A stretch of 64,000 nucleotides of DNA from a virus: IMG/VR virus record IMGVR_UViG_3300033141_006329, positions 159,371 through 223,370 of that record; one strand, given 5' to 3'. Positions 23,917 through 64,000 of the stretch are shown in pieces. A program made the translations under genes and the position numbers. Within the stretch, counting starts at the first letter, position 1. Every line of letters begins with the position of its first letter. The notes under the pieces were generated by a model, which had not been told where the DNA came from, did not search any database, and saw only the letters and a list, made by a program, of their open reading frames with translations.

Positions 23917-23981
23917 TATCTGTTTAACTTATTTATATTTTTTAATTTGTTCAACCATCTCACTGGATTTCTCTCATTCAT
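23916..23981 (-). CDS. Possible 21-residue leader peptide
   Basis: It starts at the ATG inside TATGAATGAG with GGAGGAG just upstream, reads MNERNPVRWLNKLKN..., and ends in TAATG, giving the start of the next gene. It probably exists to couple translation of the 59-residue gene to the array; whether the peptide itself acts is unknown. Confidence 0.35.
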   Translation of the reverse strand: MNERNPVRWLNKLKNINKLNR

Positions 23982-24273
23982 ATTCTCCTCCTACCTCATA
24001 AAACGTTGTCAATAAATCCCCCACAATTATTTGACATCTATTAGTATATTCATTATTTTCATTTTGAAAGTCTCTAGGATTACATTTACTTAAATAATTA
24101 TGCACTATCATTTTTAATTCTGCTTCAAATCTTTCATTTGGTTCTTCAAATATACAATCCCAGCAACAATTGTCCCACTTACCAACTATCAGATACAAAA
24201 AACCAGATGCTTGCCCTCTGAAGGTACTCATAATACAGTTGTCAGTACAATCATTACACATCATATCCATCAT
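23974..24273 (-). CDS. Array family member, Cys-rich variant
   Basis: A 99-residue protein from the ATG at 24273, which shares one base with the upstream stop (TGATG). It has seven Cys, including CNDCTDNC near the start, which is unusual for the family, and a WDNCCWDC stretch that might bind zinc. The end, VGDLLTTFYEVGGEYE, has the family's terminal pattern. It is the last family member of this block. Confidence 0.55.
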   Translation of the reverse strand: MMDMMCNDCTDNCIMSTFRGQASGFLYLIVGKWDNCCWDCIFEEPNERFEAELKMIVHNYLSKCNPRDFQNENNEYTNRCQIIVGDLLTTFYEVGGEYE

Positions 24274-24563
24274 CAGTATTCCTCCCCCTCCTCCCAAAAT
24301 ATCCTAAATAAATTATCCTCAATATTTATAAATACGTCATCATTATATAAGTTGATCCGATATTTAAGTTCTTTACATGTATGATCCTTCAAATAATTAG
24401 AAACAATATTTCCCAACACATTTTTGAACTTTTCACTTCTCGTCTCAAAAGGATAAGAGGAATAAACCGAACCTCCACTATCCATCATTAAATACCAATA
24501 ATTACTGATTGGACCTCTGACAATAGATATGGTCCAACTATCTATATGAATTAATTTGTTCAT
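24273..24563 (-). CDS. Array family member
   Basis: A 96-residue protein. The central helix region (KFKNVLGNIVSNYLKD) is followed by a strand and the family ending IEDNLFRIFWEEGEEY. The GAGGAGGGGGAGG codons of this ending are the ribosome site of the next gene. It lacks the central G-W turn found in the main block, so it belongs to a diverged branch. Confidence 0.55.
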   Translation of the reverse strand: MNKLIHIDSWTISIVRGPISNYWYLMMDSGGSVYSSYPFETRSEKFKNVLGNIVSNYLKDHTCKELKYRINLYNDDVFINIEDNLFRIFWEEGEEY

Positions 24564-24575
24564 TTTTCCTTTACC

Positions 24576-24872
24576 TCAATATAACCCCACACTTGTCTTT
24601 TTCCCTCTAAACTTTTTATTGTTGACTTTAGAAGGTTTAGTAATATATTTTCTAACTTCTGGTCTATTTTTAATAATGTCACAATAAGTTTTAGCCCAAT
24701 ATGAATTAGTTATTCTTCTCCACATTTCCTCTATATCATTTATATGTCTACAATATAAAAAAGCATCATTACTCTCGGTGATTAGTTTTCTTAGTTGTTC
24801 TGTCTCGACTCCTCTCAGACATTCGTTCACTGCCCAGTGACTCTTTTCATATTTGTTTGTTAATTTATTCAT
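24576..24872 (-). CDS. Small helical protein of unknown function
   Basis: Ninety-eight residues, basic and helical, with an Arg/Lys-rich tail (NNKKFRGKKTSVGLY). It does not carry the array family's C-terminal motif. It is preceded by AGGGGGC, and the next gene starts 12 bases beyond its stop. It may bind nucleic acid by charge. No family is recognised. Confidence 0.5.
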   Translation of the reverse strand: MNKLTNKYEKSHWAVNECLRGVETEQLRKLITESNDAFLYCRHINDIEEMWRRITNSYWAKTYCDIIKNRPEVRKYITKPSKVNNKKFRGKKTSVGLY

Positions 24873-24880
24873 AGTGCCCC

Positions 24881-25153
24881 CTAAAATGGATCCTTCCTCA
24901 CACTTATAAAATTTTCTGCATATCCTGAAAAATTCATTTCATAAACATCATCCACATCCGCCATCTCCTCTATAAAACCTTTCTCAATCATCCATGCAAT
25001 CAATGGTACACTGTAAGGATCTTTCCCAGTATCATCAGTATAATCAGTCTGGATAGAATTTTTATCTATTTCCTTTAGTGTCCTATATAATCCAAATATT
25101 ACAGAATCAGCACCCGCAGACGTTACAAATAATTTTCCTTTAGGTATTTTCAT
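24881..25153 (-). CDS. Small protein of unknown function
   Basis: A 90-residue protein with an acidic C-terminal half (EEMADVDDVYEMN) and a hydrophobic N-terminal strand, KLFVTSAGADSVIFGLY. It is coupled to the 147-residue gene by a 4-base ATGA overlap. It does not resemble the array family and no known family is recognised. Confidence 0.5.
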   Translation of the reverse strand: MKIPKGKLFVTSAGADSVIFGLYRTLKEIDKNSIQTDYTDDTGKDPYSVPLIAWMIEKGFIEEMADVDDVYEMNFSGYAENFISVRKDPF

Positions 25154-25593
25154 TTTATTTCCCTTACCATATAACGTTTTTGCTCTACTAAATTTAGTTT
25201 CTTCCCTCTAATAACTGCTTCGGGGCGATCATCGATATAATCTCCTTCATCATCTTTTTCAAATTCCTGTAAAAACTTTAAAACTTTATCTTCATCATCA
25301 ACCCCAAATTCTTCAATCCTATAATAATTTTCATCGGGTCTATCTATACAACACGCCACATAAATCTTATCTGATTTTCTTGGCTTACTGTTTCCAAAAT
25401 CTAAAATATATTGATCTAACACCATAGGATTGGATTCTATTCCTCTAATCACACCGATAACATCTCCATCTTCATTGTCAATTTCATTTGCCCAATCCTC
25501 TGCTTTTTTTATTGTATCACACGATCCCGATTGTTGATAATGATGAGGATCTTGAAATATTACATATATTTTTTCACTATTTTCTTTTTTCAT
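25150..25593 (-). CDS. Acidic protein with two similar halves, unknown function
   Basis: A 147-residue protein. It contains two segments of similar layout: KIYVIFQDPH...AEDWANEIDNEDGDVIGVIRG (about 8-50) and KIYVACCIDRP...VLKFLQEFEKDDEGDYIDDRPEAVIRG (about 75-130). Each is a strand, a helix, an acidic loop and an xVIRG strand, suggesting an internal duplication. It overlaps both neighbours by 4 bases. No family is recognised. Confidence 0.5.
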   Translation of the reverse strand: MKKENSEKIYVIFQDPHHYQQSGSCDTIKKAEDWANEIDNEDGDVIGVIRGIESNPMVLDQYILDFGNSKPRKSDKIYVACCIDRPDENYYRIEEFGVDDEDKVLKFLQEFEKDDEGDYIDDRPEAVIRGKKLNLVEQKRYMVREIK

Positions 25594-26003
25594 TTTAATT
25601 CTCCTTCATAAAATATTCCTAATAAATTGTCTAAATCTATGTCTACTGGTTTCAATCCAACACGCCTAAAACTAACATTAGGCTCTCCACATCCCAATGT
25701 TGTAGATATTATTCTTGCTATGCTACCTTTTGATTTAAGATCCGTTTCACTAGATATCAATTCAGAAATTACCCTTGCCAAAACATAACCAAACTTAAAG
25801 TCATTGGTATCAAATCTTTGAGTATATAAACAACGACTACTAATATATTCAATGCACCATGCCTCTGGAAATCTTTGTAGAATAATACGAATATTATAGG
25901 ATACTTTTGGTGTAAAATAATCTACAACTAATCCTTTATGCTTCTCCCATATTATTCCTTCAAATTGTCTACATGTGGGTAATTCTTTTTCGAGGTTGCT
26001 CAT
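25590..26003 (-). CDS. Array family member, long variant
   Basis: A 137-residue protein. It has strands at residues 14-45, an aromatic turn (FPEAWCIEY), a helix at about 71-100 (YVLARVISELISSETDLK), and the terminal motif IDLDNLLGIFYEGELK. It is longer than most members because of an insert between helix and C-terminal motif. The start overlaps the next gene upstream by 4 bases. Confidence 0.55.
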   Translation of the reverse strand: MSNLEKELPTCRQFEGIIWEKHKGLVVDYFTPKVSYNIRIILQRFPEAWCIEYISSRCLYTQRFDTNDFKFGYVLARVISELISSETDLKSKGSIARIISTTLGCGEPNVSFRRVGLKPVDIDLDNLLGIFYEGELK

Positions 26004-26305
26004 CTTAATTCTCCTCCACCATTAAATATTTCTCCCAACAAATTATTGGTAACATAATCATCAGTTCCGATATCTAATGCGCGATGAATCATGGGATCAA
26101 CATTAAAATAGCTATTGTAGTGAGATTTTACGTTTACATGCCAACCCTTATCATCCATAGATATACTATGAAATATCAAATACTCGAACTCATAGATTAG
26201 AGAATTTGCATTTGTACTATAACCAGTATATACATTTTCTTCCCCACAATTATGATCCAGCCAGAGTTCATTTTTTGTAAATCTTGCTTTTGCAAATTCT
26301 ATCAA
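26000..26305 (-). CDS. Array family member, canonical
   Basis: A 101-residue protein showing the full family pattern: an N-terminal strand with charged residues (AKARFTKNELWLDH), a mid-protein YEFEYLIFHSISM strand, the KGW turn (about 53-55), a helix containing HRALDIGTDDYVTNNLL, and the ending IFNGGGELR. Overlaps are 4 bases on both sides. Confidence 0.65.
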   Translation of the reverse strand: MIEFAKARFTKNELWLDHNCGEENVYTGYSTNANSLIYEFEYLIFHSISMDDKGWHVNVKSHYNSYFNVDPMIHRALDIGTDDYVTNNLLGEIFNGGGELR

Positions 26306-26613
26306 TACGTTCCTCCCTCATAATAAACTCCCTCTATCAGTTTATCGATCCCTATATGTTTATCAACCGCAGTATCCAATGCTCGAAATAAAAATGCAGG
26401 AATAGTAGAATGTTCATAAGATGCTGACATTTGAGCCTGCCAACCTTTTTGAGTCATAAACAATCTATCAAAAATTAAATCCTTCTCGTAAAAATAATAA
26501 GTGAGAGGCTCTATGCGTTCCAAACGACCTCTACTTTGATGATAATTTTGATTTCCAAAATCATAATCCATGATAATCCCGGTTTCGTTGAAGTTCGCTT
26601 CTATAATATACAT
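26302..26613 (-). CDS. Array family member, canonical
   Basis: A 103-residue protein from the ATG at 26613, which has GGGAG upstream; a start at 26640 would lack one. It carries the strand-turn pattern FDRLFMTQKGW and the helix-plus-ending FRALDTAVDKHIGIDKLIEGVYYEGGTY (given here as two parts of one segment). It is separated by 14 bases from the ASCH-like gene. Confidence 0.65.
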   Translation of the reverse strand: MYIIEANFNETGIIMDYDFGNQNYHQSRGRLERIEPLTYYFYEKDLIFDRLFMTQKGWQAQMSASYEHSTIPAFLFRALDTAVDKHIGIDKLIEGVYYEGGTY

Positions 26614-26627
26614 CAATATTTTTCTCC

Positions 26628-26948
26628 CTATATCATCCATCTCACTACAGTTACCTTTAAATCATCTCCGGTCCCAGGATACATTATCTTAAAGAAGTTT
26701 AACATTTGTTCCCTGCCGGCAAAGCCATGATCAATACTGTCCCTTCTTTCTACTTCTCCTATAGTGATATGCTTAACAGAAATTATCCTTCTTATAACTG
26801 CCCAGCTGGGATCCTCATTTCCTATCAGGACAGTTCCTAGTTCATAATGACGATGACCTTTTCTTATAACCGTACTTTTCTTTTTATTTTGAACATCATC
26901 TCGCATATGATGTCCTCCTATTAATATTGCTTGTACTGGTGGTTTCAT
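26628..26948 (-). CDS. ASCH-domain-like protein
   Basis: A 106-residue protein. The order KKKSTVIRKGHRHYELGTVL...AVIRRIISVKHITIGEV...DHGFAGREQMLNFF (separated stretches) matches the ASCH/PUA-like fold: an R/K turn, a beta strand giving the G-x-V-L, the I-x-I-x-x-V strand, and an A/GF-x-x-x-E-x-x-x-x-F helix. ASCH proteins bind RNA or modified nucleosides, and some are amidohydrolases. It is the only recognisable non-family protein inside this stretch of the array. It overlaps the next gene by 4 bases. Confidence 0.6.
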   Translation of the reverse strand: MKPPVQAILIGGHHMRDDVQNKKKSTVIRKGHRHYELGTVLIGNEDPSWAVIRRIISVKHITIGEVERRDSIDHGFAGREQMLNFFKIMYPGTGDDLKVTVVRWMI

Positions 26949-27283
26949 TTTTCTTCCTCCTTTCCTATCTCCATAAATTGTGTCAATAATTTATCTATAG
27001 TTATTTCATAATCTTCATCCTTTAAAATCTCATTCTTCAAAATTTGGATCCCACCCTTCTTCTTTGTAAGATCTGAAACAATTTGAAATAATATCTCACC
27101 AAAATTAAAATTACGAACGACAAAGAACAACCAACCTTGATTAACGAAACGAGTTGAAGAAAGATCGATAATATAGTTACCATCTATATTGGGAAATAAT
27201 TCAAACTTACACTTATTTTCATAATATAAAACCCAGCAATCATAATTACCATGTCTCTGATTCTTTATTTTATGCCATTTCAA
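26945..27283 (-). CDS. Array family member with a TTG start
   Basis: A 112-residue protein. The TTG at 27283 is chosen because GGAGGGAGAATAA lies just before it and overlaps the end of the upstream gene; ATG codons further upstream would run through that gene. Features are an NQGWLFFVV turn and strand, the helix FGEILFQIVSDL, and the ending YEITIDKLLTQFMEIG followed by KEEEK. The reduced hydrophobic end suggests divergence. Confidence 0.55.
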   Translation of the reverse strand: MKWHKIKNQRHGNYDCWVLYYENKCKFELFPNIDGNYIIDLSSTRFVNQGWLFFVVRNFNFGEILFQIVSDLTKKKGGIQILKNEILKDEDYEITIDKLLTQFMEIGKEEEK

Positions 27284-27284
27284 A

Positions 27285-27440
27285 TTATTCTCCCTCCTTT
27301 TCCCATTCATCCAAAAGATTTGCTGCATCACTACATCCTTCCCAATTATCAAGTCCAGATTGTTCAAGTGCTTGTAACCATAGTCGATCCTTCAATAATT
27401 CATCATATTCTTTTTTGCTTATAGTTATTTGTTCTTCCAT
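27285..27440 (-). CDS. Small helical protein of the ITISxxEY type
   Basis: A 51-residue protein, MEEQITISKKEYDELLKDR..., with a WLQALEQSGLDNWEGC segment typical of short phage proteins of unknown function. GAGAAGATC precedes the ATG. It ends one base before the TTG of the next gene, so its tail (EKEGE, codons AAG GAG GGA GAA) supplies that gene's ribosome site. Confidence 0.6.
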   Translation of the reverse strand: MEEQITISKKEYDELLKDRLWLQALEQSGLDNWEGCSDAANLLDEWEKEGE

Positions 27441-28205: not shown

Positions 28206-28221
28206 AAGTCAACTCCTTTCT

Positions 28222-28443
28222 CTACCAAAATTTTAAACCATACTTAAGCCTGTGCATTAAAAAACTAATTACCAATCCTGGAAATCCAAAACCAAACCCT
28301 ATAATCATAGAACCAATCATATATCTATAATAATCTTTTTCAAAATATCCTGTAGGTTCTCTTATGAAATAGGCAAAGTTAATACCGTAAGAAATCACAC
28401 CACTCACAATCCATATAATAATAATTACCATATTCTCACTCAT
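28222..28443 (-). CDS. Small two-helix membrane protein, paralogue of the previous
   Basis: A 73-residue protein with helices at about 4-26 and 41-64 joined by a charged loop containing YFEKDYYRYM. It overlaps the end of the array member upstream by 8 bases, so it sits inside the same transcript. It may be a membrane anchor or an exclusion protein; nothing in the sequence decides. Confidence 0.55.
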   Translation of the reverse strand: MSENMVIIIIWIVSGVISYGINFAYFIREPTGYFEKDYYRYMIGSMIIGFGFGFPGLVISFLMHRLKYGLKFW

Positions 28444-28738
28444 ATTTTATACCTCTCTCCCATATCTCCTCTAATAAATTATCAGTTACATATTCATCAA
28501 CAGCATTTGATACAAGATTTAACAATTGTTCACACCGACTTACTAAGTTTTCGTTCTGATACATATCGAAATGCCAACCATTCTTAGTCATAATCAAACC
28601 ACTGAATACTAAGTCGTGAAATCTATAATATATCATCTCACACTCTAATCCAATTGTATTTCCCTCATGTTTATATGTAGCGGGATATTCAGTATTATAA
28701 TATATAGTCATAATATCTTTTTCAAATACAATTTTCAT
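28436..28738 (-). CDS. Array family member, canonical
   Basis: A 100-residue protein: MKIVFEKDIMTIYY strand, IYYRFHDLVFSGLIM strand pair, KNGW turn (52-55), helix CEQLLNLVSNAVDEYVTDNLL, ending EEIWERGIKYE. Of all members it, 30631, 30896 and 31189 share the VDEYVTDNLL block most closely. GGAGAGAGGTATAAAAT in its last codons is the ribosome site of the membrane-protein gene. Confidence 0.65.
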   Translation of the reverse strand: MKIVFEKDIMTIYYNTEYPATYKHEGNTIGLECEMIYYRFHDLVFSGLIMTKNGWHFDMYQNENLVSRCEQLLNLVSNAVDEYVTDNLLEEIWERGIKYE

Positions 28739-29064
28739 AGGACCGATCCCCTACTACTAAAACCAACCAATAGTTCATCAAATCCTATATAATCATCCAC
28801 ACCAAAATCTATAGCTTTAAGAAGCTTCCACTGAAATTCTGTTTCCAGAGCGCGTTTATCGCTAAACCACCCCTGATTACGCATTACCAACTTATTGTAA
28901 TACGTAGTTCTAAACCTATACGATAGAAATTCATCTTCAATGCTCAAATAACCTATGTTAACTGAGCTAATGTCTGACCCTATATAATAGTTTATATACA
29001 ATTGATCCTCTTCAAAAACTGCTTGTAAGCTAAATCTATATGTCAGTTTCACTTTTCTTGTCAT
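28735..29064 (-). CDS. Array family member, canonical
   Basis: A 109-residue protein with an extra basic N-terminal strand (MTRKVKLTYRFS). The conserved parts are FLSYRFRTTYYNKLVM, RNQGW, LLKAIDFGVDDYIGFDELL and the ending VGFSSRGSVL. It overlaps its upstream partner by 4 bases. Confidence 0.65.
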   Translation of the reverse strand: MTRKVKLTYRFSLQAVFEEDQLYINYYIGSDISSVNIGYLSIEDEFLSYRFRTTYYNKLVMRNQGWFSDKRALETEFQWKLLKAIDFGVDDYIGFDELLVGFSSRGSVL

Positions 29065-29366
29065 ACCTCTAACCCTTTCCCACTAAATCCTATTAACAAA
29101 TCATCCATCTTCAAATAATTATCCATCCCTTTAGGTATTGCTCTAACCGCAACAACCATTATGCTTTCAAACCCTTCTATAATAGAAGGATAGGACCACC
29201 CATCCTTATCCATTATTATTTTTTTAACGCACAGATCTTTATCAAAATCATATGAAATATTTTCATAATCAATACATAGATTGCCCTGATGAGCTGGAGC
29301 ATTGGCGTTGGGAAAATAAATAAATATTTCCTTATCTGTAACTGTTACTTCGACTGGTATATTCAT
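29061..29366 (-). CDS. Array family member, canonical
   Basis: A 101-residue protein: VTVTDKEIFIYF strand, ISYDFDKDLCVKKIIM, DKDGW, then a helix ending GMDNYLKMDDLL and the terminal IGFSGKGLEV. Closest to the two genes on either side. ATGA overlap with both. Confidence 0.65.
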   Translation of the reverse strand: MNIPVEVTVTDKEIFIYFPNANAPAHQGNLCIDYENISYDFDKDLCVKKIIMDKDGWSYPSIIEGFESIMVVAVRAIPKGMDNYLKMDDLLIGFSGKGLEV

Positions 29367-29668
29367 GATAATACTCCTGCTCCTTTCTCACCAAATTTCA
29401 ATAGTAAATCCTCAAATTTTATATATTTATCTATCCCTATTGATAGTGCCCTGTATAATTCATTCATGGCATTATCATACCCACCCTCGACATTAGGTAC
29501 ATTCCAACCATCTTTGGTTATAGTTAAATAATCGAAGCATATATCATCGAATTGATAAGTAGTGTATCCTTCTCCAACCATTCTTCCTTCATGCATTGTT
29601 TTGCTGAAGTCATAAAATAATATCATCTTTTTGTTTTCAAATGTTATCTCCAATCTTTCATATGCCAT
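29363..29668 (-). CDS. Array family member, canonical
   Basis: A 101-residue protein: LEITFENKKMILFYDF, YTTYQFDDICFDYLTI, TKDGWNVPNVEGGYD (a loop also seen as PNVSGGYND in 30896), LYRALSIGIDKYIKFEDLL, ending LKFGEKGAGVLS. The shared PNVxGGY loop shows recent common ancestry of these two copies. Confidence 0.65.
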   Translation of the reverse strand: MAYERLEITFENKKMILFYDFSKTMHEGRMVGEGYTTYQFDDICFDYLTITKDGWNVPNVEGGYDNAMNELYRALSIGIDKYIKFEDLLLKFGEKGAGVLS

Positions 29669-29990
29669 AGACTATTCCTCCCGTCCCAATATTAAACAAA
29701 AGATCCTCAAACTTTATGTATACATCAGTATAATAATCCATAGCCGCAAATAGATCATTCATAGCATCATTCTTATTTTTGGAAGTAATCCTATTAACAA
29801 CCCAGCCCTCTTCCCGCAGTGTTAGTGTATTAAAACAGACTCCTGAAAATTCATATGTAAGAAAATTTTCATCTCCAATACATATGGAACCCTCATAACT
29901 CGCATAACATCCACCATTTTTGTAGTAGTTTATCCTTATCGCAAATCCTGAAAAAGTTATATTTAGATCACAATCGTCTCCTGTATCCAT
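29658..29990 (-). CDS. Array family member, canonical
   Basis: A 110-residue protein: LNITFSGFAIRINYY, YEGSICIGDENFLTYEF, REEGW, LFAAMDYYTDVYIKFEDLL, ending FNIGTGGIVYGI. The YIKFEDLL block is identical to that of 29363. It is separated by 13 bases from the upstream member. Confidence 0.65.
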   Translation of the reverse strand: MDTGDDCDLNITFSGFAIRINYYKNGGCYASYEGSICIGDENFLTYEFSGVCFNTLTLREEGWVVNRITSKNKNDAMNDLFAAMDYYTDVYIKFEDLLFNIGTGGIVYGI

Positions 29991-30003
29991 CAGATTTTCT
30001 CCT

Positions 30004-30342
30004 TCATATTGTTATTCCTTTCCTGCCGAAATTGTCCATAAATTCTATAATTCCTATATAATCATCTACCCCTGCATTTATCGCTTTGTATAAATAATTC
30101 ATCTCAACTATCTCCGAATCTTGATAGAGTATTTCATTTATGTACCAACCATTCTTATTCATTATTAGTCTATTGAAATATAGTTCATACTCTTTAGGAA
30201 ATGAATAGGTCATATCCTCAACTTTCAAAAACCCCATATATACTGCAGGTATATCGATCATTTTTCCTGTTATACTCGGCATATAAATAGATATTGTCAT
30301 GGCAAGTATATCATCTGTGAATTTCACCTTTGTAAGATACAT
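30004..30342 (-). CDS. Array family member
   Basis: A 112-residue protein from ATG 30342 (GAAAGGAATAAGTG precedes). Conserved parts are MTYSFPKEYELYFNRLIM, KNGW, LYKAINAGVDDYIGIIEFM and the ending DNFGRKGITI. It overlaps the upstream gene by 32 bases, the longest overlap in the array, because that gene has an added C-terminal tail. Confidence 0.6.
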   Translation of the reverse strand: MYLTKVKFTDDILAMTISIYMPSITGKMIDIPAVYMGFLKVEDMTYSFPKEYELYFNRLIMNKNGWYINEILYQDSEIVEMNYLYKAINAGVDDYIGIIEFMDNFGRKGITI

Positions 30343-30634
30343 CACTTATTCCTTTCTCTCCAAACTTCACTAATAAATCAGTTGTAAATACATCAACTCC
30401 TCTCATTGCTTCTCTTCGAAGATTAAGTTCGAATGCGCGTTCAATGCAACCGTTTATATCCACATACCAACTACCATCTTCACGCATTTCTATTCCTTTG
30501 ATACTTGTAAGTCCAAATTTGTAATATATGGGATCGCATTGAGTTAGATATCCTTCAATTGTATATTCATCATCAGAAAAAGATCCATACCCATAGGTCA
30601 CAATCATTTTATCATCCTCAAATCTTATTTTCAT
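30311..30634 (-). CDS. Array family member with C-terminal extension
   Basis: A 107-residue protein: MKIRFEDDKMIVTYGYG, IYYKFGLTSIKGIEM, REDGSW (one residue inserted in the turn), RREAMRGVDVFTTDLLVKF. After the family ending GEKGIS it continues 11 residues (DVSYKGEIHR), reading through the next gene's ribosome site and start, which suggests a past frame change near the stop. Confidence 0.6.
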   Translation of the reverse strand: MKIRFEDDKMIVTYGYGSFSDDEYTIEGYLTQCDPIYYKFGLTSIKGIEMREDGSWYVDINGCIERAFELNLRREAMRGVDVFTTDLLVKFGEKGISDVSYKGEIHR

Positions 30635-30912
30635 ATTTCATCCCCTTTATAATATAACATAGTTAACAGATTATCAGTTATGTATTCATCAATTCCGCAA
30701 TTAGCCGATTTACAGAATAAGATAGAATCTTTTTTGGATGGGATTTTATGAGGTTCTGTGATAAAAATCCAACCCCCCTCATTCAAACTTAAAACGGTCT
30801 TAAAATTTTTAAAATCATAATATATATGATCGGAGTCAAAGTTTAGAGAGCCTATATTGTTGATATTAGTAAATTCTATGGTCATCTTTTTTGCCTCAAA
30901 TCTTATTTTCAT
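30631..30912 (-). CDS. Array family member, short
   Basis: A 93-residue protein: MKIRFEAKKMTIEFT, IYYDFKNFKTVLSL, NEGGW, CKSANCGIDEYITDNLL, ending TMLYYKGDEI. Its first six residues are identical to 30311. The AAAGGGGAT codons at its end act as the next gene's ribosome site. Confidence 0.65.
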   Translation of the reverse strand: MKIRFEAKKMTIEFTNINNIGSLNFDSDHIYYDFKNFKTVLSLNEGGWIFITEPHKIPSKKDSILFCKSANCGIDEYITDNLLTMLYYKGDEI

Positions 30913-31192
30913 ATTTCATCCCCTTGTAATATATACTATTCAACAAATTATCAGTTACGTAATCGTCTATACCATCAGTTGTTTTTCTTAATACCATATA
31001 TATAATATCATTATAACCACCACTTACATTAGGTGTATCACAACATTTCTTTGTTATTATCAGGGTATCGAAACGCAAATTTTTAAATTTATAAGAAATA
31101 CATTCATCGTTATAATAATCTAAATTACCCATATGTTGATAATATTTATTATATGTCACAATCATCTGATCTTCTGTAAATTTCACCTTCAT
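30896..31192 (-). CDS. Array family member lacking the Gly-Trp turn
   Basis: A 98-residue protein: MKVKFTEDQMIVTYNKYY, ISYKFKNLRFDTLII, then TKKCCDTPNVSGGYND in which CC replaces GW, and GIDDYVTDNLLNSIYYKG. It overlaps 30631 by 17 bases. The loss of the otherwise nearly invariant Trp makes it a natural variant for testing that residue. Confidence 0.65.
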   Translation of the reverse strand: MKVKFTEDQMIVTYNKYYQHMGNLDYYNDECISYKFKNLRFDTLIITKKCCDTPNVSGGYNDIIYMVLRKTTDGIDDYVTDNLLNSIYYKGMKYENKI

Positions 31193-31488
31193 ATTTCATC
31201 TCCTATTTGATACATACCTTCCAGAATATTATCTGTTACATATTTATCAACAGCTACTGACATTGCCTTATATAATTTACACATGCTATCATTATCATCA
31301 GAGTTATCTTTATAATCATGTGCAACCCAACCATTCTCGGTCATCTCTAAACTTTGAAAAATTAACTCATGTGTAAAATCATATATTAACCATTCACGCA
31401 ATAATCCAGCAAGTGTAATTGTATCATCGCCGCCACTATTACAGGTTATAAACATCTTTTTTGGTTTAAATTCTACTACCATATCCAT
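31189..31488 (-). CDS. Array family member, canonical
   Basis: A 99-residue protein: MVVEFKPKKMFITCN, LIYDFTHELIFQSLEM, TENGW, an Asp/Asn-rich loop, LYKAMSVAVDKYVTDNIL, ending EGMYQIGDEI. The start overlaps the GGATGGATATGG end of the upstream gene by 13 bases. Confidence 0.65.
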   Translation of the reverse strand: MDMVVEFKPKKMFITCNSGGDDTITLAGLLREWLIYDFTHELIFQSLEMTENGWVAHDYKDNSDDNDSMCKLYKAMSVAVDKYVTDNILEGMYQIGDEI

Positions 31489-31817
31489 CCACCTATTCCT
31501 CCCTCAAATAACACATTCAATAATTCATCTGTATTGATACTAATCCAAATATTATGGAATGCTGTTTTCATAATAATTTTTATCATATCTCCAAGTTCAT
31601 TATCTACAAAAAACTCATCCAATATCTTAACTAAAACTTCTACAAAATGGGGGGAAGTATTGGAAAAGGATATGTTATAATGAAAAACACTTTTGAGATA
31701 TATAGTAGTAAACCTATGATTCCAAAATATCTGCAAATTTCTATTTTTACCCAATCCCATATAATAACAAAGTTTGCTATTCTCAGTTTTTCTAATCCTG
31801 CGTCCTGCCGGTTTCAT
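31476..31817 (-). CDS. Array family member, diverged
   Basis: A 113-residue protein with a basic start (MKPAGRRIRKTEN). The family strands are hard to see, but a helix FVEVLVKILDEFF and the ending ISINTDELLNVLFEGGIGG remain. It marks the change from the canonical subgroup to the diverged subgroup that fills the rest of the block. Confidence 0.55.
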   Translation of the reverse strand: MKPAGRRIRKTENSKLCYYMGLGKNRNLQIFWNHRFTTIYLKSVFHYNISFSNTSPHFVEVLVKILDEFFVDNELGDMIKIIMKTAFHNIWISINTDELLNVLFEGGIGGWIW

Positions 31818-32140
31818 ATCTTGACTCCTTTCTCATACATCTCTCCCACAAAAGAATCGATATCTACCGATACAGTAGCATGATTATTCCTAAGTAATAC
31901 ATCTTTAAAATAACTAAAGCCTTTCTTATCAATAGCATTCATCATAACTTCCTTAAGTATATTTCTAAAGGACTTTTCGCCCAATTCGAACGTAATAACG
32001 GCAAAGTCTGACTCCGCCCAATAATAATTACATGCTAAATGCCACCTATCTGAATAATATGAATGAATCACATCATTCCCCTCCAAACATTTATCAACAT
32101 CCATACAATAATCAATTGCGTTACTGCGAACCCATTCCAT
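31814..32140 (-). CDS. Array family member, pair with 32121
   Basis: A 108-residue protein from ATG 32140 (GAAAGGAGGAGAAT precedes; an upstream ATG at 32170 would overlap the partner deeply). The start MEWVRSNAIDYCMDVDKCLEG and helix FRNILKEVMMNAIDKKGF align with the next gene, so the two are recent tandem duplicates. It ends VDIDSFVGEMYEKGVKI. Confidence 0.6.
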   Translation of the reverse strand: MEWVRSNAIDYCMDVDKCLEGNDVIHSYYSDRWHLACNYYWAESDFAVITFELGEKSFRNILKEVMMNAIDKKGFSYFKDVLLRNNHATVSVDIDSFVGEMYEKGVKI

Positions 32141-32462
32141 ATTCTCCTCCTTTCTCATACATTGTTTCAATTAATAAACTAATATCTATGATCAGCTCTG
32201 CGCCAATATTCCTATTGATCGAATCCTTAAAATCTTCAAATCCTTTTCTATCTACCGCATCTATCATAAATTCCTTAAGTGTATCTCTAAACGATTCTCC
32301 CACATGATTAAATATAATACAACAGTATTCAAAATGCAACATATAATTAGTAGAAAGTATCCACCTATCATCGGAACAATAAGAATAAATTATACAATCA
32401 CCCTCAACACACATATCCACATCTTTACAAAATCCTACAGAAGCTTCGTGATACCATCTCAT
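32121..32462 (-). CDS. Array family member, pair with 31814
   Basis: A 113-residue protein. It shares with its neighbour the C-x-DVD-x-C-x-EG, YSYCSDDRW and ESFRDTLKEFMIDAVDRKGFEDFKD patterns (compared in parts). It ends IDISLLIETMYEKGGEYGMGSQ in two parts, where the last residues extend through the ribosome site and start of the next gene (20-base overlap). Confidence 0.6.
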   Translation of the reverse strand: MRWYHEASVGFCKDVDMCVEGDCIIYSYCSDDRWILSTNYMLHFEYCCIIFNHVGESFRDTLKEFMIDAVDRKGFEDFKDSINRNIGAELIIDISLLIETMYEKGGEYGMGSQ

Positions 32463-32752
32463 ATATTTGCTCCTTTCTCAAACATCTCAAGTAATAAATC
32501 ATCATTAAAGCCGAATACAGAATAATTAAATACACTGATAGATTCCTCAGTAAACTCGAAATTCTTAACAATATTTTTCAAATCTTTTTCAAGTTCTTTC
32601 ACCCGGCTGTTATTAACCAAAAATGCTATATAGCCCCAATCGTCTCCTAACTTCGTCCTTCCAATTCGTACCGTTACCCAACCATAATGAATATTTGGAA
32701 TATAACTCTCTGTACTATATACATTCAGAAACTTATCATCTTCAGGTATCAT
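32459..32752 (-). CDS. Array family member
   Basis: A 97-residue acidic protein: IHYGWVTVRIGRTKLGDDWGY strands in two parts, VKELEKDLKNIVKNFEF helix, and the ending FGFNDDLLLEMFEKGANI. ATGA overlap downstream; 11-base overlap upstream. Confidence 0.6.
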   Translation of the reverse strand: MIPEDDKFLNVYSTESYIPNIHYGWVTVRIGRTKLGDDWGYIAFLVNNSRVKELEKDLKNIVKNFEFTEESISVFNYSVFGFNDDLLLEMFEKGANI

Positions 32753-33119
32753 AACTAGTCCCTTCCTTATTAAAAATACGCATCAAATCATCAGTATCTA
32801 ATATTATAGTACCGATTTCCGGAATAAATTCACTTAGTAAACCACCCTTATAATATTTAGTCTCCATTATTTCAGTTAAGGATTTTATTTGTCCCATACT
32901 GATATTATGCATATAATAAAATGTAATATAATTTTGAATGTAATGACAATTTGAACTAGTATCCTTAAGCTGAAAGCTCACAGTATTTGATAAACTCAGT
33001 CCCACATAAAGAGATTTTGCCTTATCTGGAATATCTGCGCTATAAGATTTTACCCACCAATATTTAGTCGTGTCGACCTTCTTATATACCCACTCACCTA
33101 ATTTTTTTATGTGTTTCAT
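32742..33119 (-). CDS. Array family member, diverged
   Basis: A 125-residue protein with a basic N-terminus (MKHIKKLGEWVYKKVD), the strand YVGLSLSNTVSFQL, helix MGQIKSLTEIMETKYY and the ending IILDTDDLMRIFNKEG. A TSYDT tail follows the motif and spans the next gene's start. Confidence 0.55.
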   Translation of the reverse strand: MKHIKKLGEWVYKKVDTTKYWWVKSYSADIPDKAKSLYVGLSLSNTVSFQLKDTSSNCHYIQNYITFYYMHNISMGQIKSLTEIMETKYYKGGLLSEFIPEIGTIILDTDDLMRIFNKEGTSYDT

Positions 33120-33481
33120 ATCATAACTCCTTCAATACAAATAATATTCAAATATTCTTCGGTTTCAAACGATGTTGTTATGGGGTTGTAAATATTTTCA
33201 CCTGTAATAATTAATTTTTTTATATCCTGCTCTTTGTCATACTTCTCATCTAAAATAGTTTTTATATATTTGTGTAATCTTTCATCTGCATTTTGAAATT
33301 CTAATGTGTATAGAGACGACATGGCTGAGGGGCTAGTTTTTGTAACTGAAAGCAATACATCATTCACGCGATAATAATAATCTAATCTTATTGTCAAATC
33401 ACTATGATAACTAGTCTCGGTGCCATCTAAATATATATTTCCTGTCAATCCGCTTCTTTTCCAACTTAGCATATAATACAT
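33116..33481 (-). CDS. Array family member, EEYLN subgroup
   Basis: A 121-residue protein: LTIRLDYYYRVNDVLLSV strands, helix ADERLHKYIKTILDEKYDK and the ending SFETEEYLNIICIEGVMI. The ending EEYL-N/A-x-x-x-x-G-G/V is also found at 62711 and 63070 in the second array, so the same subgroup is present about 30 kb apart. Confidence 0.6.
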   Translation of the reverse strand: MYYMLSWKRSGLTGNIYLDGTETSYHSDLTIRLDYYYRVNDVLLSVTKTSPSAMSSLYTLEFQNADERLHKYIKTILDEKYDKEQDIKKLIITGENIYNPITTSFETEEYLNIICIEGVMI

Positions 33482-33801
33482 CCTCCCGTTAACATAATGT
33501 TCAAGGTGTCTTTTTCCCTTAAGCGATAACTGTTCTTGTCCGGGTCTATATTATCTAATTTATTATACAATTCTTCCATACTCAAATCACTAAGAAGATC
33601 ACAAGCAATATCAACTAGTTTGCGCTTGTTTCTTCCCATATCGCACTCGAATATAATACCACTACCACGTTCTACCTCTCTTCTGAACATTATTATCTGT
33701 ATATATGTCTTCACGAAATACCTTATAATCAACTCAAACTCACCAGACCGATATGAATAGATATTTCCCTTGCATTTGAATTGATCTCTATTTATCCTCA
33801 T
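33466..33801 (-). CDS. Array family member, diverged
   Basis: A 111-residue protein: YRSGEFELIIRYF strand, RKLVDIACDLLSDLSMEELYNKL helices in two parts, LDNIDPDKNSYRLREKD, ending TLNIMLTGGCIIC. It pairs with 33788: the N/E-x-VDPEKYSPTFKE and DNIDPDKNSYRLRE regions align. Confidence 0.6.
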   Translation of the reverse strand: MRINRDQFKCKGNIYSYRSGEFELIIRYFVKTYIQIIMFRREVERGSGIIFECDMGRNKRKLVDIACDLLSDLSMEELYNKLDNIDPDKNSYRLREKDTLNIMLTGGCIIC

Positions 33802-35415: not shown

Positions 35416-35444
35416 TTTTATATCTCCTTTCAAAAATTAACAAT

Positions 35445-35458: not shown

Positions 35459-35471
35459 TCTTAATCATAAA

Positions 35472-58518: not shown

Positions 58519-58851
58519 TTATATCCTTCCACCTTTTAACCAACAATTATTCAATATCAGATCCACATCAATCGAAATATTGGCATTATCATTACTAAAA
58601 ATAAGCTTTTCAAATCGATCAAAATTAAGCATAACCTTATCTATAATATTTGCAAAAATTTTCAACATTTTATAATCATAACAACCTTCAAATCTCAAAA
58701 ATTTATATGGTTTGCCTAATGTTTGACAGCGAGTGCTTATACATAGTGTGTGATGAAAATTATAGAATATATTGATGTATATACACTCCTTAATTGGACC
58801 AAATCTTTTCAATACATTATGCGGATATATTGTCCAACCGTTCTCACACAT
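58519..58851 (-). CDS. Lone array family member
   Basis: A 110-residue protein from ATG 58851. The helix KMLKIFANIIDKVMLNFDRF and the ending ISIDVDLILNNCWLKGGRI fit the family, and a WTIYPHN strand and turn is present. It is the only copy outside the two blocks and sits directly before cca, whose ribosome site (GGAAGGAT) lies in its last codons. There is no clear ribosome site of its own. Confidence 0.5.
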   Translation of the reverse strand: MCENGWTIYPHNVLKRFGPIKECIYINIFYNFHHTLCISTRCQTLGKPYKFLRFEGCYDYKMLKIFANIIDKVMLNFDRFEKLIFSNDNANISIDVDLILNNCWLKGGRI

Positions 58852-59056
58852 TTTCAAAAAACACCGAGTTAAATGGCACAGTAGGAAATTCCTCAAGATA
58901 TATATTCGTATGCCAATTATGTACATCAATCATATTAACCGTATATACACCATTGTAAACCAAATGGTCCTTGGCTTTATCCTGATCATATTTATAACCA
59001 TTTTCGGGATATTTGAAAACAATCTTATCCCCCTTTTTCACTTCTAATTCTTTCAC
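58844..59056 (-). CDS. Small conserved phage protein
   Basis: A 70-residue protein from GTG 59056 (AAAGGAGATAATC precedes; the TTG further upstream lacks such a site). The KGDKIVFKYPENGYKYDQDKAK start (parts), HLVYNGVYTV and the ending FPTVPFNSVFFE match a frequently seen, unnamed phage protein with an SH3-like look. It overlaps the array member by 8 bases. Confidence 0.65.
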   Translation of the reverse strand: MKELEVKKGDKIVFKYPENGYKYDQDKAKDHLVYNGVYTVNMIDVHNWHTNIYLEEFPTVPFNSVFFENV

Positions 59057-60356: not shown

Positions 60357-60671
60357 TTAATATACAAATCCCTTCTCATTGAAATCATCAAACAAATCAT
60401 AATCATTGATCGGTTTTATATAACTATTATTTTCAAAAATATCAAGTATATTCAGAGAGTCTTTAGAAAGTTCTTCTGTTAAATAATCTGTAATGATTAA
60501 GAGTTGTTTTTCGGTTATACCATCACAACACATAATATTTCTACTCGCATGAAACAAATATCCACTCCTCAACAAATTCAAATATATGCCTCTAAACAAT
60601 CTCCAATACGACATTCGATACGAAGTGATTACGATTGTCCAATCATCATTCCTCTGTACTCTTCTTTCCAT
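60357..60671 (-). CDS. Second-array family member, last gene
   Basis: A 104-residue protein from ATG 60671 (GGAAGAGGGATAAT precedes). It reads WTIVITSYRMSYWRLFRGIYL, helix QLLIITDYLTEELSKDSLN, and ends YDLFDDFNEKGFVY. It keeps the C-terminal pattern although no gene starts directly behind it, which bears on whether the motif is needed for the protein itself. Confidence 0.55.
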   Translation of the reverse strand: MERRVQRNDDWTIVITSYRMSYWRLFRGIYLNLLRSGYLFHASRNIMCCDGITEKQLLIITDYLTEELSKDSLNILDIFENNSYIKPINDYDLFDDFNEKGFVY

Positions 60672-60685
60672 ATTATCCCTCTTCC

Positions 60686-61063
60686 TCATTCCAGACTAAC
60701 CCCTAAATTGAAAATATTATCAAACAACTCCTCGAAATGAATATCAACTGCCCTGTGTCCTGGCCCTATAATAAGAGAAATATCATCAACCCTTAAATAT
60801 TTTTCGTCTAACACGCCTTGTAGATAATCTTTGAATTTGGAAGACAATTCAACATTGTGGCTATTAAATACTAATGTGTATGAATCCTTTGAATTAAACC
60901 AGTTGCTGTCCACCGTATTAACAACAACACCGAACTCAAAAGATGTTCCCGTTACATTATCCCAAGGAGTATATTCCCACAGATTGATTTGCCTATTACA
61001 TATTGGATCGTTAAGTACTAACATGTTCACAATTTGTTTCCTTTTTGTTTTTACCCAATTCAT
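60686..61063 (-). CDS. Second-array family member
   Basis: A 125-residue protein from ATG 61063 (AAAGGAGGTATAGC precedes). It shows TSFEFGVVVNTVDSN and YTLVFNSHNVELSSKFKDYL (strand then helix), an IIGPGHRAVDIHFEELFDNIF ending (parts), and NLGVSLE. Confidence 0.55.
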   Translation of the reverse strand: MNWVKTKRKQIVNMLVLNDPICNRQINLWEYTPWDNVTGTSFEFGVVVNTVDSNWFNSKDSYTLVFNSHNVELSSKFKDYLQGVLDEKYLRVDDISLIIGPGHRAVDIHFEELFDNIFNLGVSLE

Positions 61064-61064
61064 G

Positions 61065-61445
61065 CTATACCTCCTTTCCTTTCCCAAATAAATTCTCTAT
61101 AATACTATCTGTAATGCCCTCAAAACTCTTTTCAATATGAATTTTCAAGTTATCAGGTGTAGCATCGGAGGGATCTGTAAATAATTTGTTGCACTCTTCG
61201 ATTATTATAGCTAAAAAACAAATGAATATCTCCCTGTTATATTTGTTTGGATCAAACTCATGATTAGAAAGTTGTATCATGGTCGGTTTGAATTGACCAC
61301 ATTCATCATGCGCCCAAATTATAAAACCCGAACTAACACCATGTATCAATGCATTTAAAAATGGGAGCTTACAACTCCAACTAGAATAACCATCTCTGTC
61401 AATTCTTTCCCAATTCCAATATAAAAATCGTTCAAGTTCAATCAT
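61065..61445 (-). CDS. Second-array family member
   Basis: A 126-residue protein from ATG 61445 (GAGGGCATAATT precedes). It reads FLYWNWERIDRDGYSSWSC, GFIIWAHDECGQF, helix IFICFLAIIIEECNKLF and the ending GITDSIIENLFGKGKEV. The next start follows after one base. Confidence 0.55.
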   Translation of the reverse strand: MIELERFLYWNWERIDRDGYSSWSCKLPFLNALIHGVSSGFIIWAHDECGQFKPTMIQLSNHEFDPNKYNREIFICFLAIIIEECNKLFTDPSDATPDNLKIHIEKSFEGITDSIIENLFGKGKEV

Positions 61446-61455
61446 AATTATGCCC

Positions 61456-61794
61456 TCAAATTGTTGTTCCAAAGTCTCCCAATAATATTTTGTCTGCTAT
61501 CTCATGACAATTATAGTTAAAATCATGACCAGGATATAATACTTTTCGAATTAAACCTTTCCTTTTATGCCTCTCGTTTAAAATGACCTTTAACTCTTCT
61601 GTAAATTTATCTATATGAGCAATATGGATAAAATACAAACCATCAAAAGATAGTTGTGCGTTTTTGTGTATATAAACTGTTACGCCATGATTATATTTAT
61701 CTTTTTGTATCACAATATCACCATAAGGTATATTTCCTTCATAACGACTACGAAAAGAGTTACTTTCGTCAAACCATTTAATATCTTCAATCAT
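61456..61794 (-). CDS. Second-array family member
   Basis: A 112-residue protein from ATG 61794 (AAGGGACACGATT precedes). It reads GDIVIQKDKYNHGVTVYIH, IDKFTEELKVILNERHKRKG and the ending YNCHEIADKILLGDFGTTI, in which the Gly motif is partly lost. It aligns with 62711 in the helix and PGHD/FAGCHD region. Confidence 0.55.
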   Translation of the reverse strand: MIEDIKWFDESNSFRSRYEGNIPYGDIVIQKDKYNHGVTVYIHKNAQLSFDGLYFIHIAHIDKFTEELKVILNERHKRKGLIRKVLYPGHDFNYNCHEIADKILLGDFGTTI

Positions 61795-62119
61795 AATCGT
61801 GTCCCTTGAAATTAAATATATCAAACATGTGTTCAAATGTCATATCATATCTAATATAATCATGTGTAAAAATTTTTGATATATTACCACCATACTCATA
61901 ATACACATCGAATAATCCTATAATATCAATGATTAATAATTTTTTAGAATTACTAATATTAAGCCGAATTGCCCGACGAGAATAAAATTCATTATAAAAT
62001 TCTATCTCGATCACATGTCTACAATTCCACACATCCAATTTACAATTTCCAACTCTGGTTTTATGACAAAACTTACCTATACCCAAATCAATTTTTTCCC
62101 ATCGTAATTCATCTCTCAT
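61787..62119 (-). CDS. Second-array family member
   Basis: A 110-residue protein: CKLDVWNCRHVIEIEFYNE strand, RAIRLNISNSKKLLIIDIIG, and the ending MTFEHMFDIFNFKGHDYD. It overlaps its neighbours by 8 and 4 bases. Confidence 0.55.
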   Translation of the reverse strand: MRDELRWEKIDLGIGKFCHKTRVGNCKLDVWNCRHVIEIEFYNEFYSRRAIRLNISNSKKLLIIDIIGLFDVYYEYGGNISKIFTHDYIRYDMTFEHMFDIFNFKGHDYD

Positions 62120-62442
62120 AATCCAACTCCTTCACACCATATAGTATTTAAAATTTCGTCAGGTTCAAATTTATGATAACCTTGATGTATTATCTCTAAT
62201 ATGTTTGGGTGTTTCTCAACCTGTTGACTCAATATATTCCTAAGTTCGTGTATAAAAGTTTCAGGAATATTTTTTACACCCAAATCAAAATGCAGCATAG
62301 GATAAACACGACCAAATTTATAATCATCGGGTTCATATAAAACTACTTCCGTATCTCGTTTGAATATCCTCAAATATAAACCTCTTGCAATCGGTAATTT
62401 GGCATAATGGACATTAAACAAAACTGTCCATTTCAATTTCAT
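62116..62442 (-). CDS. Second-array family member
   Basis: A 108-residue protein: MKLKWTVLFNVHYAKL start, LYLRIFKRDTEVVLYEPDD strands, helix PETFIHELRNILSQQVEKH and the ending FEPDEILNTIWCEGVGL. The EPDEIL helix is a clear copy of the family's DxLL element. Confidence 0.55.
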   Translation of the reverse strand: MKLKWTVLFNVHYAKLPIARGLYLRIFKRDTEVVLYEPDDYKFGRVYPMLHFDLGVKNIPETFIHELRNILSQQVEKHPNILEIIHQGYHKFEPDEILNTIWCEGVGL

Positions 62443-62714
62443 GGTGGTGCGCCCCCTTCCTCAAATAAATCGAAAATCATATCATCAGGAAACCAATATT
62501 CAAATAATGCAACATTTAACTCGAATGAAACATGATCGTGTGTATGTCTTTCTGATGCTCTAAATATCCAATTCCCCCTAACTTCTGAAATTATATCCGA
62601 GTATTTCTTTTTGAATCCACAAATACTCAATGGGAGACATCGTACTCTACTCTCCAAAAATAAAAAACCACCAGCCAAATCCCCAACTATTAACAACTTT
62701 CGATAATTAATCAC
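62439..62714 (-). CDS. Second-array family member, short
   Basis: A 91-residue protein: LLIVGDLAGGFLFLESRVRC strands, KKKYSDIISEVRGNWIF, and the ending FPDDMIFDLFEEGGAPP. GAGGAAGGGGGC near its stop is the ribosome site of the gene at 62116. Confidence 0.55.
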   Translation of the reverse strand: MINYRKLLIVGDLAGGFLFLESRVRCLPLSICGFKKKYSDIISEVRGNWIFRASERHTHDHVSFELNVALFEYWFPDDMIFDLFEEGGAPP

Positions 62715-63073
62715 AATATAATTCCTCCCCCAATCATAATTGCTAAATATTCCTCATCTGATAAAAGATAAATTAGCTTTACATCATGACATCCTGCGAA
62801 TGGTAGTAATGTCGCAATATTGCCCGTTTTTTCATAATTATCTTCTATCAATACTTTCAAGTAATCCCTAAATTTGATACTGGTTTTAGAAAATGTGATG
62901 TATGTAAACCCTGTAACATCTGCTCCGAAATGCCCACATTTCCATAGTTTTAGTGTAGTGTCCTCAAGTTGACCATAAAAATCAAGTTCAATTACATAAT
63001 CATTATCGTCGTAGAATGTAAGATATACAGATCCTGTCCTCTCATTGAAATAATCTTGCCTAATGTGCATCAT
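62711..63073 (-). CDS. Second-array family member, EEYLA subgroup
   Basis: A 120-residue protein from ATG 63073 (GGGGGAGTTATAAT precedes). It reads GSVYLTFYDDNDYVIELDF, GFTYITFSKTSIKFRDYLKVL, then PFAGCHDVKLIYLLSDEEYL (parts) and the ending AIMIGGGIIL. Confidence 0.6.
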   Translation of the reverse strand: MMHIRQDYFNERTGSVYLTFYDDNDYVIELDFYGQLEDTTLKLWKCGHFGADVTGFTYITFSKTSIKFRDYLKVLIEDNYEKTGNIATLLPFAGCHDVKLIYLLSDEEYLAIMIGGGIIL

Positions 63074-63444
63074 ATTATAACTCCCCCATATCCAATAACA
63101 TTTAAATATTCTTCATCTTCTAAATTCAAAGGATCTTCGGGTAAGGCAGGAATCATATAATCTATACAAGTCCCCTTCCTATATTCCTTATTTATTATCC
63201 TCACAAGTTCAAGGACAAGATTGGTCCCATAATCACCAACGAACCCATATATCTCTATACAACCCGGTATATCATTATCATCTTTAGTATTATATACAAA
63301 TATCATTATGTCGCCAGCTTCTGAATGCCATGTTACATCTATCTCGCAATCGTGTCTAGGTACCTTTCCTAAATACGTATATCCAGGTATCACAAAAAAT
63401 CTTTTCTCCCATTTTATAGGGAGAATTTTATCGTTATATCTCAA
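63070..63444 (-). CDS. Second-array family member, EEYLN subgroup
   Basis: A 124-residue protein: ILPIKWEKRFFVIPGYTYLG, GDIMIFVYNTKDDND, GTNLVLELVRIINKEYRKG helix and the ending PLNLEDEEYLNVIGYGGVII (closing residues match 62711). It shares the EEYLN ending with the first-array gene at 33116. Confidence 0.6.
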   Translation of the reverse strand: MRYNDKILPIKWEKRFFVIPGYTYLGKVPRHDCEIDVTWHSEAGDIMIFVYNTKDDNDIPGCIEIYGFVGDYGTNLVLELVRIINKEYRKGTCIDYMIPALPEDPLNLEDEEYLNVIGYGGVII

Positions 63445-63686
63445 ATTTCTTCTCCTCTATAATAGAAAATATCAAACAGCTTATTCATACTAAGTAGATA
63501 TTCAAGTGCTTTACCATACAACCCGTATATAAAAAGTTTTTTATCGTAGGGTTGTATATATTCTAATATCGTATGAATATTTACCCTATGCTTAAAAATC
63601 CCAATATCATCAAAATAGGAATAACTAATATTAACCATACCCCCAGGCTCTATATCTGCACTAACAACCGTAGCATTATGTTTCAT
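63441..63686 (-). CDS. Second-array family member, shortest
   Basis: An 81-residue protein from ATG 63686 (AGGAGGATCAATATT precedes). It shows only the second half of the usual pattern: VVSADIEPGGMVNISYSYF, HTILEYIQPYDKKLFIYGLYG (parts), then LSMNKLFDIFYYRGEEI. It may be a reduced copy. Confidence 0.5.
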   Translation of the reverse strand: MKHNATVVSADIEPGGMVNISYSYFDDIGIFKHRVNIHTILEYIQPYDKKLFIYGLYGKALEYLLSMNKLFDIFYYRGEEI

Positions 63687-64000
63687 AATATTGATCCTCC
63701 TTCTAAAAGAATATCTAAAGGTTCGACGCAACCATATAAATAATTCTTATCAATAACTAATTCCTTACCTTTATCATACAAATCATCAATTATTTTTGCA
63801 AGTTCATGAAATTGTTTCTTATCAATATTAAAACTATAGAATATATGACCATACCCTGTAGTTGCATCACTATCTAAAGTTCGTATTATGTAAAGGCTAG
63901 ATAATAAAGGATTAAAACTTATGCATACCCTATGACTACCATAATGTCGTATGTATTTAATATCGCCCCACCAATTAGGTTTAAATTCCCAATGACTCAT
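63683..64000 (-). CDS. Second-array family member at the window edge
   Basis: A 105-residue frame whose ATG is the last codon of the window, so an earlier start beyond the edge is possible. It reads RVCISFNPLLSSLYIIRTLD, QFHELAKIIDDLYDKGKELV and ends CVEPLDILLEGGSIL. It shows that the array continues to the right. Confidence 0.5.
   Translation of the reverse strand: MSHWEFKPNWWGDIKYIRHYGSHRVCISFNPLLSSLYIIRTLDSDATTGYGHIFYSFNIDKKQFHELAKIIDDLYDKGKELVIDKNYLYGCVEPLDILLEGGSIL

Follow-up and report, generated by a model that had tools for sequence, protein, structure and literature searches.

The final 64 kb (bases 159371–223370; hereafter "the window", 64,000 nucleotides) of the 223,370-base IMG/VR record IMGVR_UViG_3300033141_006329, a phage known from metagenome sequence alone, carry arrays of small tandem genes. 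They are inserted between virion genes read in the opposite direction, and represent a lineage-specific expansion seen in a single jumbo myovirus. In the whole record 68 genes are individually supported as members of two protein families, here called A and C; the array genes occupy about 28 kb, some 1/8 of the genome, and no larger gene-family expansion of this sort appears to have been described from a phage. We tentatively hypothesize, from sequence features, that the arrays may represent a repertoire of inhibitors that bind varied host proteins in counter-defence or takeover, a reading which we favour, while rating it as somewhat short of probable. The record further encodes a contractile sheath, baseplate, tape measure, portal and major head protein, as well as DNA polymerase B, topoisomerase, ribonucleotide reductase and subunits of a multisubunit RNA polymerase, and is a jumbo myovirus with its own multisubunit RNA polymerase. 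Its tube-like protein points to Bacillus phage BpSp and Staphylococcus phage SA1 as the closest cultured phages, 40% of the protein aligning at about 30% identity.

The window contains 40 small open reading frames (ORFs) on the minus strand (6 + 22 + 1 + 11; Table 1), mostly with overlapping stop and start codons. All 40 had been listed in a preliminary description of this DNA, and all exist at the positions given there, on the minus strand. Two arrays had been described; the record actually holds three arrays and two single copies. The third and bigger array lies left of the window on the same strand (L008:2957–15231 and L008:16597–19610, genome 142.9–159.6 kb), and the isolated copies are found at L001:19556 and L003:1763, where L001, L003 and L008 denote pieces of the same record outside the window with piece-relative coordinates. 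A further member is located in the upstream sequence at L008:15213–15560 (hhalign E 5.8e-4). Two adjoining paralogous small membrane proteins are encoded in the middle of the first array (window 27981–28443).

Membership was assessed with leave-one-out (LOO) hidden Markov models (HMM), for which each gene's close paralogues were removed before scoring (cut-off E<=1e-3), and with hhalign, where support means a match better than any of 120 unrelated control proteins. By LOO scoring, family C comprises 45 array genes, 15 in the window and 30 in the third array; none of 89 reversed sequences passes, and among 358 other proteins only the two single copies do. The iterated family C profile converged at 43 proteins, with top decoys at about E 0.04–0.09, and a separate six-frame profile search of the whole record displays 47 matches at E<0.05. 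Family A consists of 12 window genes (26000, 26302 and 28436–31189; E 1e-24 to 1e-33). The 68 supported genes are therefore 45 + 2 + 12 by profile, and nine by hhalign (32459, 60357, 60686, 61456, 63441, L008:6251, L008:9996, L008:15213 and L008:19197). Within the window, individual support exists for 32 of the 40 genes (15 of family C by LOO and 12 of family A, together with four of C and one of A by hhalign). Neither profile nor hhalign individually places 34113, 34468, 61065, 61787, 62439 and 63070; taken together, the nine weak genes of the 60–64 kb region do match profile C (E 9e-4, against 0.45 for the reversed control).

The preliminary description had regarded all copies as one family. 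This stands separately for 15 of the 40 genes in C and 12 of the 40 in A, plus five by hhalign, while A and C are joined only via the C-terminal ~20 columns and a similar predicted layout. The match between the two profiles is limited to the last ~21 columns (E 9e-4; among 120 unrelated proteins the best reached 0.0076, and reversed A 0.32), and we accordingly treat the families as probably related, but not as proven kin. Alignments of multiple copies hold no conserved stretch of 7–10 residues.

The C-terminus itself requires caution, as most array genes overlap the next gene by ATGA or slightly more, and the GGAGG ribosome-binding site of that gene translates as Glu-Gly-Gly in the upstream frame. 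Hence, the C-terminal signature is partly imposed by translational coupling; the second Gly and the residues after it usually overlap the ribosome-binding site and start of the following gene. One Gly is retained in copies that lack a following gene or are followed by one with a separate ribosome-binding site (60357, L008:2957, L008:8898, L003:1763), so this residue also matters to the protein. The Gly-Gly ending noted earlier is accordingly in part a reflection of the Shine-Dalgarno sequence belonging to the gene that follows. The families could also be unrelated and owe their C-terminal likeness to these signals of the next gene, which we consider unlikely, though less so than any of the functional alternatives discussed below; it concerns ancestry only and is compatible with all of them. 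The coincidence of EGG-x-EL-stop with the GGAGG site and ATGA overlap, and the shortness of the A–C match, speak for it. However, the match takes in the helix preceding the Gly, the Gly persists in the four copies named above, the order of predicted elements is similar, and A and C copies are interleaved in the arrays.

The copies are strongly diverged. The two most similar copies of the whole genome share 52% protein and 69% DNA identity, and the pairs 34833/35113 and 31814/32121, previously called near-duplicates, are at only 39% and 43% in protein, respectively. An assembly artefact is ruled out, no pair exceeding 69% DNA identity. Adjacent genes are more alike than in permuted order (0/2000 permutations for C, 62/2000 for A), as tandem duplication predicts. 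The earlier proposal of repeated tandem duplication with strong divergence is supported by this neighbour similarity in C, and by the largest paralogue group in a syntenic relative having two members. The ratio of non-synonymous to synonymous substitution rates (dN/dS) is 0.2–0.8 in most close pairs and 1.3 in one pair, which indicates that the reading frames are maintained.

For family C, an AlphaFold model (L008:8194, 44 sequences; predicted local distance difference test (pLDDT) 87, predicted template modelling score (pTM) 0.76) displays a helix, five strands and three helices, a confidently predicted small beta-meander-plus-helices domain. The family A model (window 28436, 12 sequences; pLDDT 74, pTM 0.64) has six strands and two helices. 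Conserved columns of family C are hydrophobic (W11, F64, F71, L75, I78); no polar column exceeds 58% identity, which makes an enzyme unlikely. Family A has one invariant Asp (D81), and neither family has a conserved Cys or His column that could provide zinc ligands. Net charge of the members ranges from −15 to +8, and on account of this range DNA mimicry is rejected as a general explanation; the median isoelectric point (pI) of each family is below 5. Foldseek found no match at E<=1e-3 for the C model in PDB and BFVD or for the A model in PDB. There is no consistent Pfam, PHROGs or PADLOC match among 44 family C members, and no consistent Pfam or PHROGs match among 12 family A members. Single members and a five-member alignment had no match in a viral contig collection, and neither had capsid and ligase queries; tblastn searches of cultured phages with two members returned no meaningful hit. 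Nor is the array region accounted for by any tRNA or Rfam element.

The first array sits in a 16.6 kb insertion between the tail sheath and tube genes, on the strand opposite to the flanking virion genes. Sheath and tube genes are adjacent in G002, a syntenic relative of 201 kb, and also in L034, L035, L036 and L040 (L023–L041 being loci of relatives), and in BpSp and SA1 the matched tube-like gene directly follows the sheath gene or its positional equivalent. The same interval is an accessory hotspot in the group (L026–L029, L033, L037–L039, L041). A search of phage genomes for the same array, as the preliminary description had proposed, gave none: it was not found in G002, where the largest paralogue group is two, and with profiles A and C, 13 other IMG/VR records (several being fragments) as well as BpSp and SA1 gave no array. 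In L041 (7577–9775), this interval is occupied by some seven tandem copies of another small family, which contains Cys and begins with MKLI, an independent small-family expansion. DUF7487/endonuclease-like paralogues lie around the arrays (window 19165–20274 and 22241–23251, L008:1385–2830) and have relatives in this interval of other phages; they are possible agents of gene gain there.

Leucine-rich-repeat (LRR) proteins with array-like C-terminal tails flank the arrays (16399, 20271, L008:17906). As a group only, these tails match profile C (E 0.0028, compared to 0.0076 for the best of 120 controls), and a strong sequence link exists only to the subgroup 34833/35113/L008:16597. The L033 interval, from the same sample as L023, which is the nearest sheath relative (80%), contains RtcB, two LRR proteins, of which L033:2644 has an array-like tail, and a single-copy ORF of 77 residues that matches profile C by hhalign (E 5e-4). 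A plausible history may thus be read from these sequences, in which an LRR protein and a free-standing copy of its tail domain preceded the expansion.

A promoter-like motif, GGACAAAYTAWAAA, occurs at 45 sites in the record compared to about one in shuffled sequences; 35 sites lie within 120 bases upstream of a gene, usually 15–50 bases ahead of the start codon. It precedes the sheath, tube and tape-measure genes, with variants in -TAAAAA before many replication-region genes and in -TATAAA before many virion genes. The array strands have at most one weak GGACAAAYTAWAAA site, at the far end of the first array, which suggests that the arrays are not co-transcribed with the virion genes. A search for an alternative motif upstream of the array runs gave no convincing word. 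Separate early and late promoter motifs are described for AR9-type phages (PMC5312081), and early or middle expression of the arrays appears likely from the motif distribution. Ahead of the first array, window 35434–35620 (minus strand) shows a structured-RNA signal (z −2.7) with a perfect TGTCACCT/AGGTGACA hairpin, and the promoter-like motif of the tube gene, which is on the opposite strand, also occurs there twice.

Taken together, the lack of a conserved polar residue in family C, the conserved core, the variable charge, the LRR-linked relatives and the accessory location point to binding proteins rather than to enzymes or virion parts. In the mechanism we propose, array genes would be made early or middle in infection, the hydrophobic core would merely hold the fold while the variable surface binds proteins, and selection would have adapted individual copies to binding and blocking different proteins of the host or of rival phages, mainly targets in defence or takeover. 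RNA-repair and tRNA-end genes are neighbours: the third array encloses an RNA ligase gene, the 58.5 kb copy overlaps a tRNA nucleotidyltransferase gene, and the L033 locus has RtcB. RNA repair by phages has been read as a counter-measure to RNA-targeting host effectors (PMC7824862). The preliminary description had suggested many host targets in counter-defence or takeover; this we still infer from the residue pattern of C, the varied charge, the accessory site, the lack of the phage's promoter-like motif and the RNA-repair neighbours. Several points weigh against it: no member resembles a known anti-defence protein in PADLOC, Pfam or PHROGs; just three neighbourhoods tie the arrays to RNA repair; dS is near saturation, so that dN/dS indicates maintenance and not positive selection; the absence of one motif does not establish that the arrays are expressed early; and the A–C kinship depends on a match of ~21 columns at the C-terminus and on a model of middling confidence (pLDDT 74). 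Sheath and tube queries against genome contigs returned no host-linked relative. More broadly, and rather doubtfully, a standing, duplicating repertoire of fast-changing binders, built on one fold unmatched in the searched libraries and derived from or shared with the LRR tail domain, might let the lineage meet diverse host defences.

The nearest rival is a protective repertoire in which each copy neutralises a particular toxin, be it an abortive-infection toxin of the host or a rival-phage effector, so that toxins would be the targets and not host machinery or defence sensors. Size, tandem paralogous layout and fast divergence are as in immunity-protein arrays, and non-significant similarities point the same way: profile A with the type VI secretion system immunity proteins 4noo/4nso/4nsr (E 0.6–0.7), an effector-immunity complex at Foldseek rank 7 for family A (E 1.0), and one member with Imm3 (E 0.037). 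All these immunity matches are, however, below threshold, PADLOC gave none, and no toxin genes were noticed adjoining the arrays; we regard this explanation as unlikely. The location within the virion-gene region may instead suggest virion or internal-head proteins that are packaged and injected with the DNA, and giant phages such as SPN3US have many ejection proteins (PMC5694885). Opposite strand, lack of the motif found before the sheath, tube and tape-measure genes, and syntenic relatives that make virions without arrays render this quite improbable.

Nucleic-acid-binding or regulatory proteins would agree with the interpretation given to the closest precedent, the zinc ribbons of phage G (PMC7824862), but the low median pI of both families and the lack of conserved basic or metal-binding residues leave this role with a slim chance. 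Slimmer still, by a little, is runaway duplication with little function, the copies being held by recombination and hitch-hiking. Variation of the arrays among relatives and their accessory insertion site would be expected from such a process; against it, every frame is open despite divergence to 20–50% identity, core residues are kept, and dN/dS is below 1 in nearly all pairs, in genomes that normally lose such DNA.

Table 1. Array genes, bordering genes and motif sites, in window coordinates.
Feature	Position	Strand	Evidence
LRR protein with array-like C-terminal domain	16399..17367	-	PF12799
Tail sheath gene, left border of insertion holding first array	17342..19078	+	phrog_23/19666; adjoins tube gene in relatives
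LRR protein with array-like C-terminal domain	20271..21269	-	PF12799
Family C member	23974..24297	-	LOO HMM E 5e-9
Family C member	24273..24563	-	LOO HMM E 2e-14
Three interspersed non-family genes (24576, 24881, 25150)	24576..25593	-	no Pfam/PHROG match, no profile match
Family C member	25590..26003	-	LOO HMM E 2e-6
Family A member	26000..26305	-	profile A E 5e-30, whole-record search
Family A member	26302..26640	-	profile A
Family C member	26945..27367	-	LOO HMM E 2.5e-9
Family A member, structure modelled	28436..28738	-	profile A
Family A member	28735..29064	-	profile A
Family A member	29061..29366	-	profile A
Family A member	29363..29668	-	profile A
Family A member	29658..29990	-	profile A
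Family A member	30004..30345	-	profile A
Family A member	30311..30634	-	profile A
Family A member	30631..30912	-	profile A
Family A member	30896..31192	-	profile A
Family A member	31189..31488	-	profile A
Family C member	31476..31817	-	LOO HMM E 1e-10
Family C member	31814..32170	-	LOO HMM E 5e-13; 43% identical to 32121
Family C member	32121..32462	-	LOO HMM E 1e-11
Probable family C member	32459..32752	-	hhalign E 4e-4, 59 columns; best of 120 controls 0.0076
Family C member	32742..33119	-	LOO HMM E 8e-4
Family C member	33116..33481	-	LOO HMM E 8e-8
Family C member	33466..33801	-	LOO HMM E 9e-8
Family C member	33788..34165	-	LOO HMM E 6e-4
Two array genes (34113, 34468) unplaced by sequence	34113..34836	-	hhalign 0.011, 0.086; no better than controls
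Two LRR-tail-subgroup paralogues (34833, 35113)	34833..35433	-	39% mutual identity; in one group (E<=1e-4) with L008:16597, L008:17906 and LRR genes of the window
Virion (tube-like) gene, right border of insertion	35678..36412	+	phrog_21257
Family C member overlapping tRNA nucleotidyltransferase gene start	58519..58929	-	LOO HMM E 3e-6
Two probable family C members (60357, 60686)	60357..61087	-	hhalign E 0.006 each, 50-58 columns
Array gene placed only within group	61065..61472	-	group hhalign
Probable family C member	61456..61836	-	LOO HMM 0.012, hhalign 0.003
Array gene placed only within group	61787..62119	-	group hhalign
Family C member	62116..62442	-	LOO HMM E 2e-5
Array gene without individual placement	62439..62714	-	hhalign
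Family C member	62711..63073	-	LOO HMM E 1e-6
Array gene, probably family C	63070..63444	-	C-terminus like 62711 and 33116; LOO HMM 0.061
Probable family A member	63441..63731	-	hhalign 0.0046, 49 columns; best of 120 controls 0.013
Family C member at record end	63683..64000	-	LOO HMM E 5e-4
GGACAAAYTAWAAA example sites	17308-17321, 35616-35629, 38251-38264, 50619-50632

Two further genes of the window are mentioned for completeness. A TnpB/IS605 OrfB-like gene (6370–7620) has a homologue in L023 straight after the sheath gene, which suggests mobility within the group. A glycosyltransferase (53707–54912) matches the trehalose-synthase N-terminal domain PF21269 (E 1e-49) and, weakly, also GT4-conflict.

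Phage genomes are held to be too streamlined for large multigene families. In the open-access literature we found no report of a larger phage gene family, nor of the present one. Polymorphic toxin systems have tandem arrays of diverged immunity proteins, alpha/beta proteins of about 100 residues, and share this form with the arrays described here, which in contrast show no significant immunity-family match, lie in a lytic-type phage genome and have no toxin partner in sight. Host-takeover clusters such as the small early genes of SPO1 are likewise runs of small, probably non-late genes of unassigned function; such clusters mostly consist of unrelated genes, whereas one or two families make up nearly all genes here. 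Large eukaryotic DNA viruses possess tandem multigene families with roles in host range or immune evasion, and have in common with our phage the expansion of tandem paralogues, in another virus realm and host, with no sequence relation claimed. Bacillus phage G has an expansion of about 35 zinc-ribbon copies, termed unprecedented by its authors (PMC7824862), and is alike in that a single jumbo phage holds many paralogues of one small protein; the present case differs by its ~68 supported copies, smaller genome, lack of zinc ligands, a fold that found no match, and the arrangement of its genes in contiguous operon-like arrays. Expansions specific to one lineage are hence a known kind of event in jumbo phages, while the family, its size and the array form are new. 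With ~68 copies of unmatched predicted fold, arranged in operons and absent from relatives, the arrays offer a natural library on phage diversification against host defences. If the binders indeed differ in target, every copy could serve directly as a probe for a defence or host weakness not yet known, and the standing repertoire, if real, would be to phages what multigene families are to large eukaryotic viruses.

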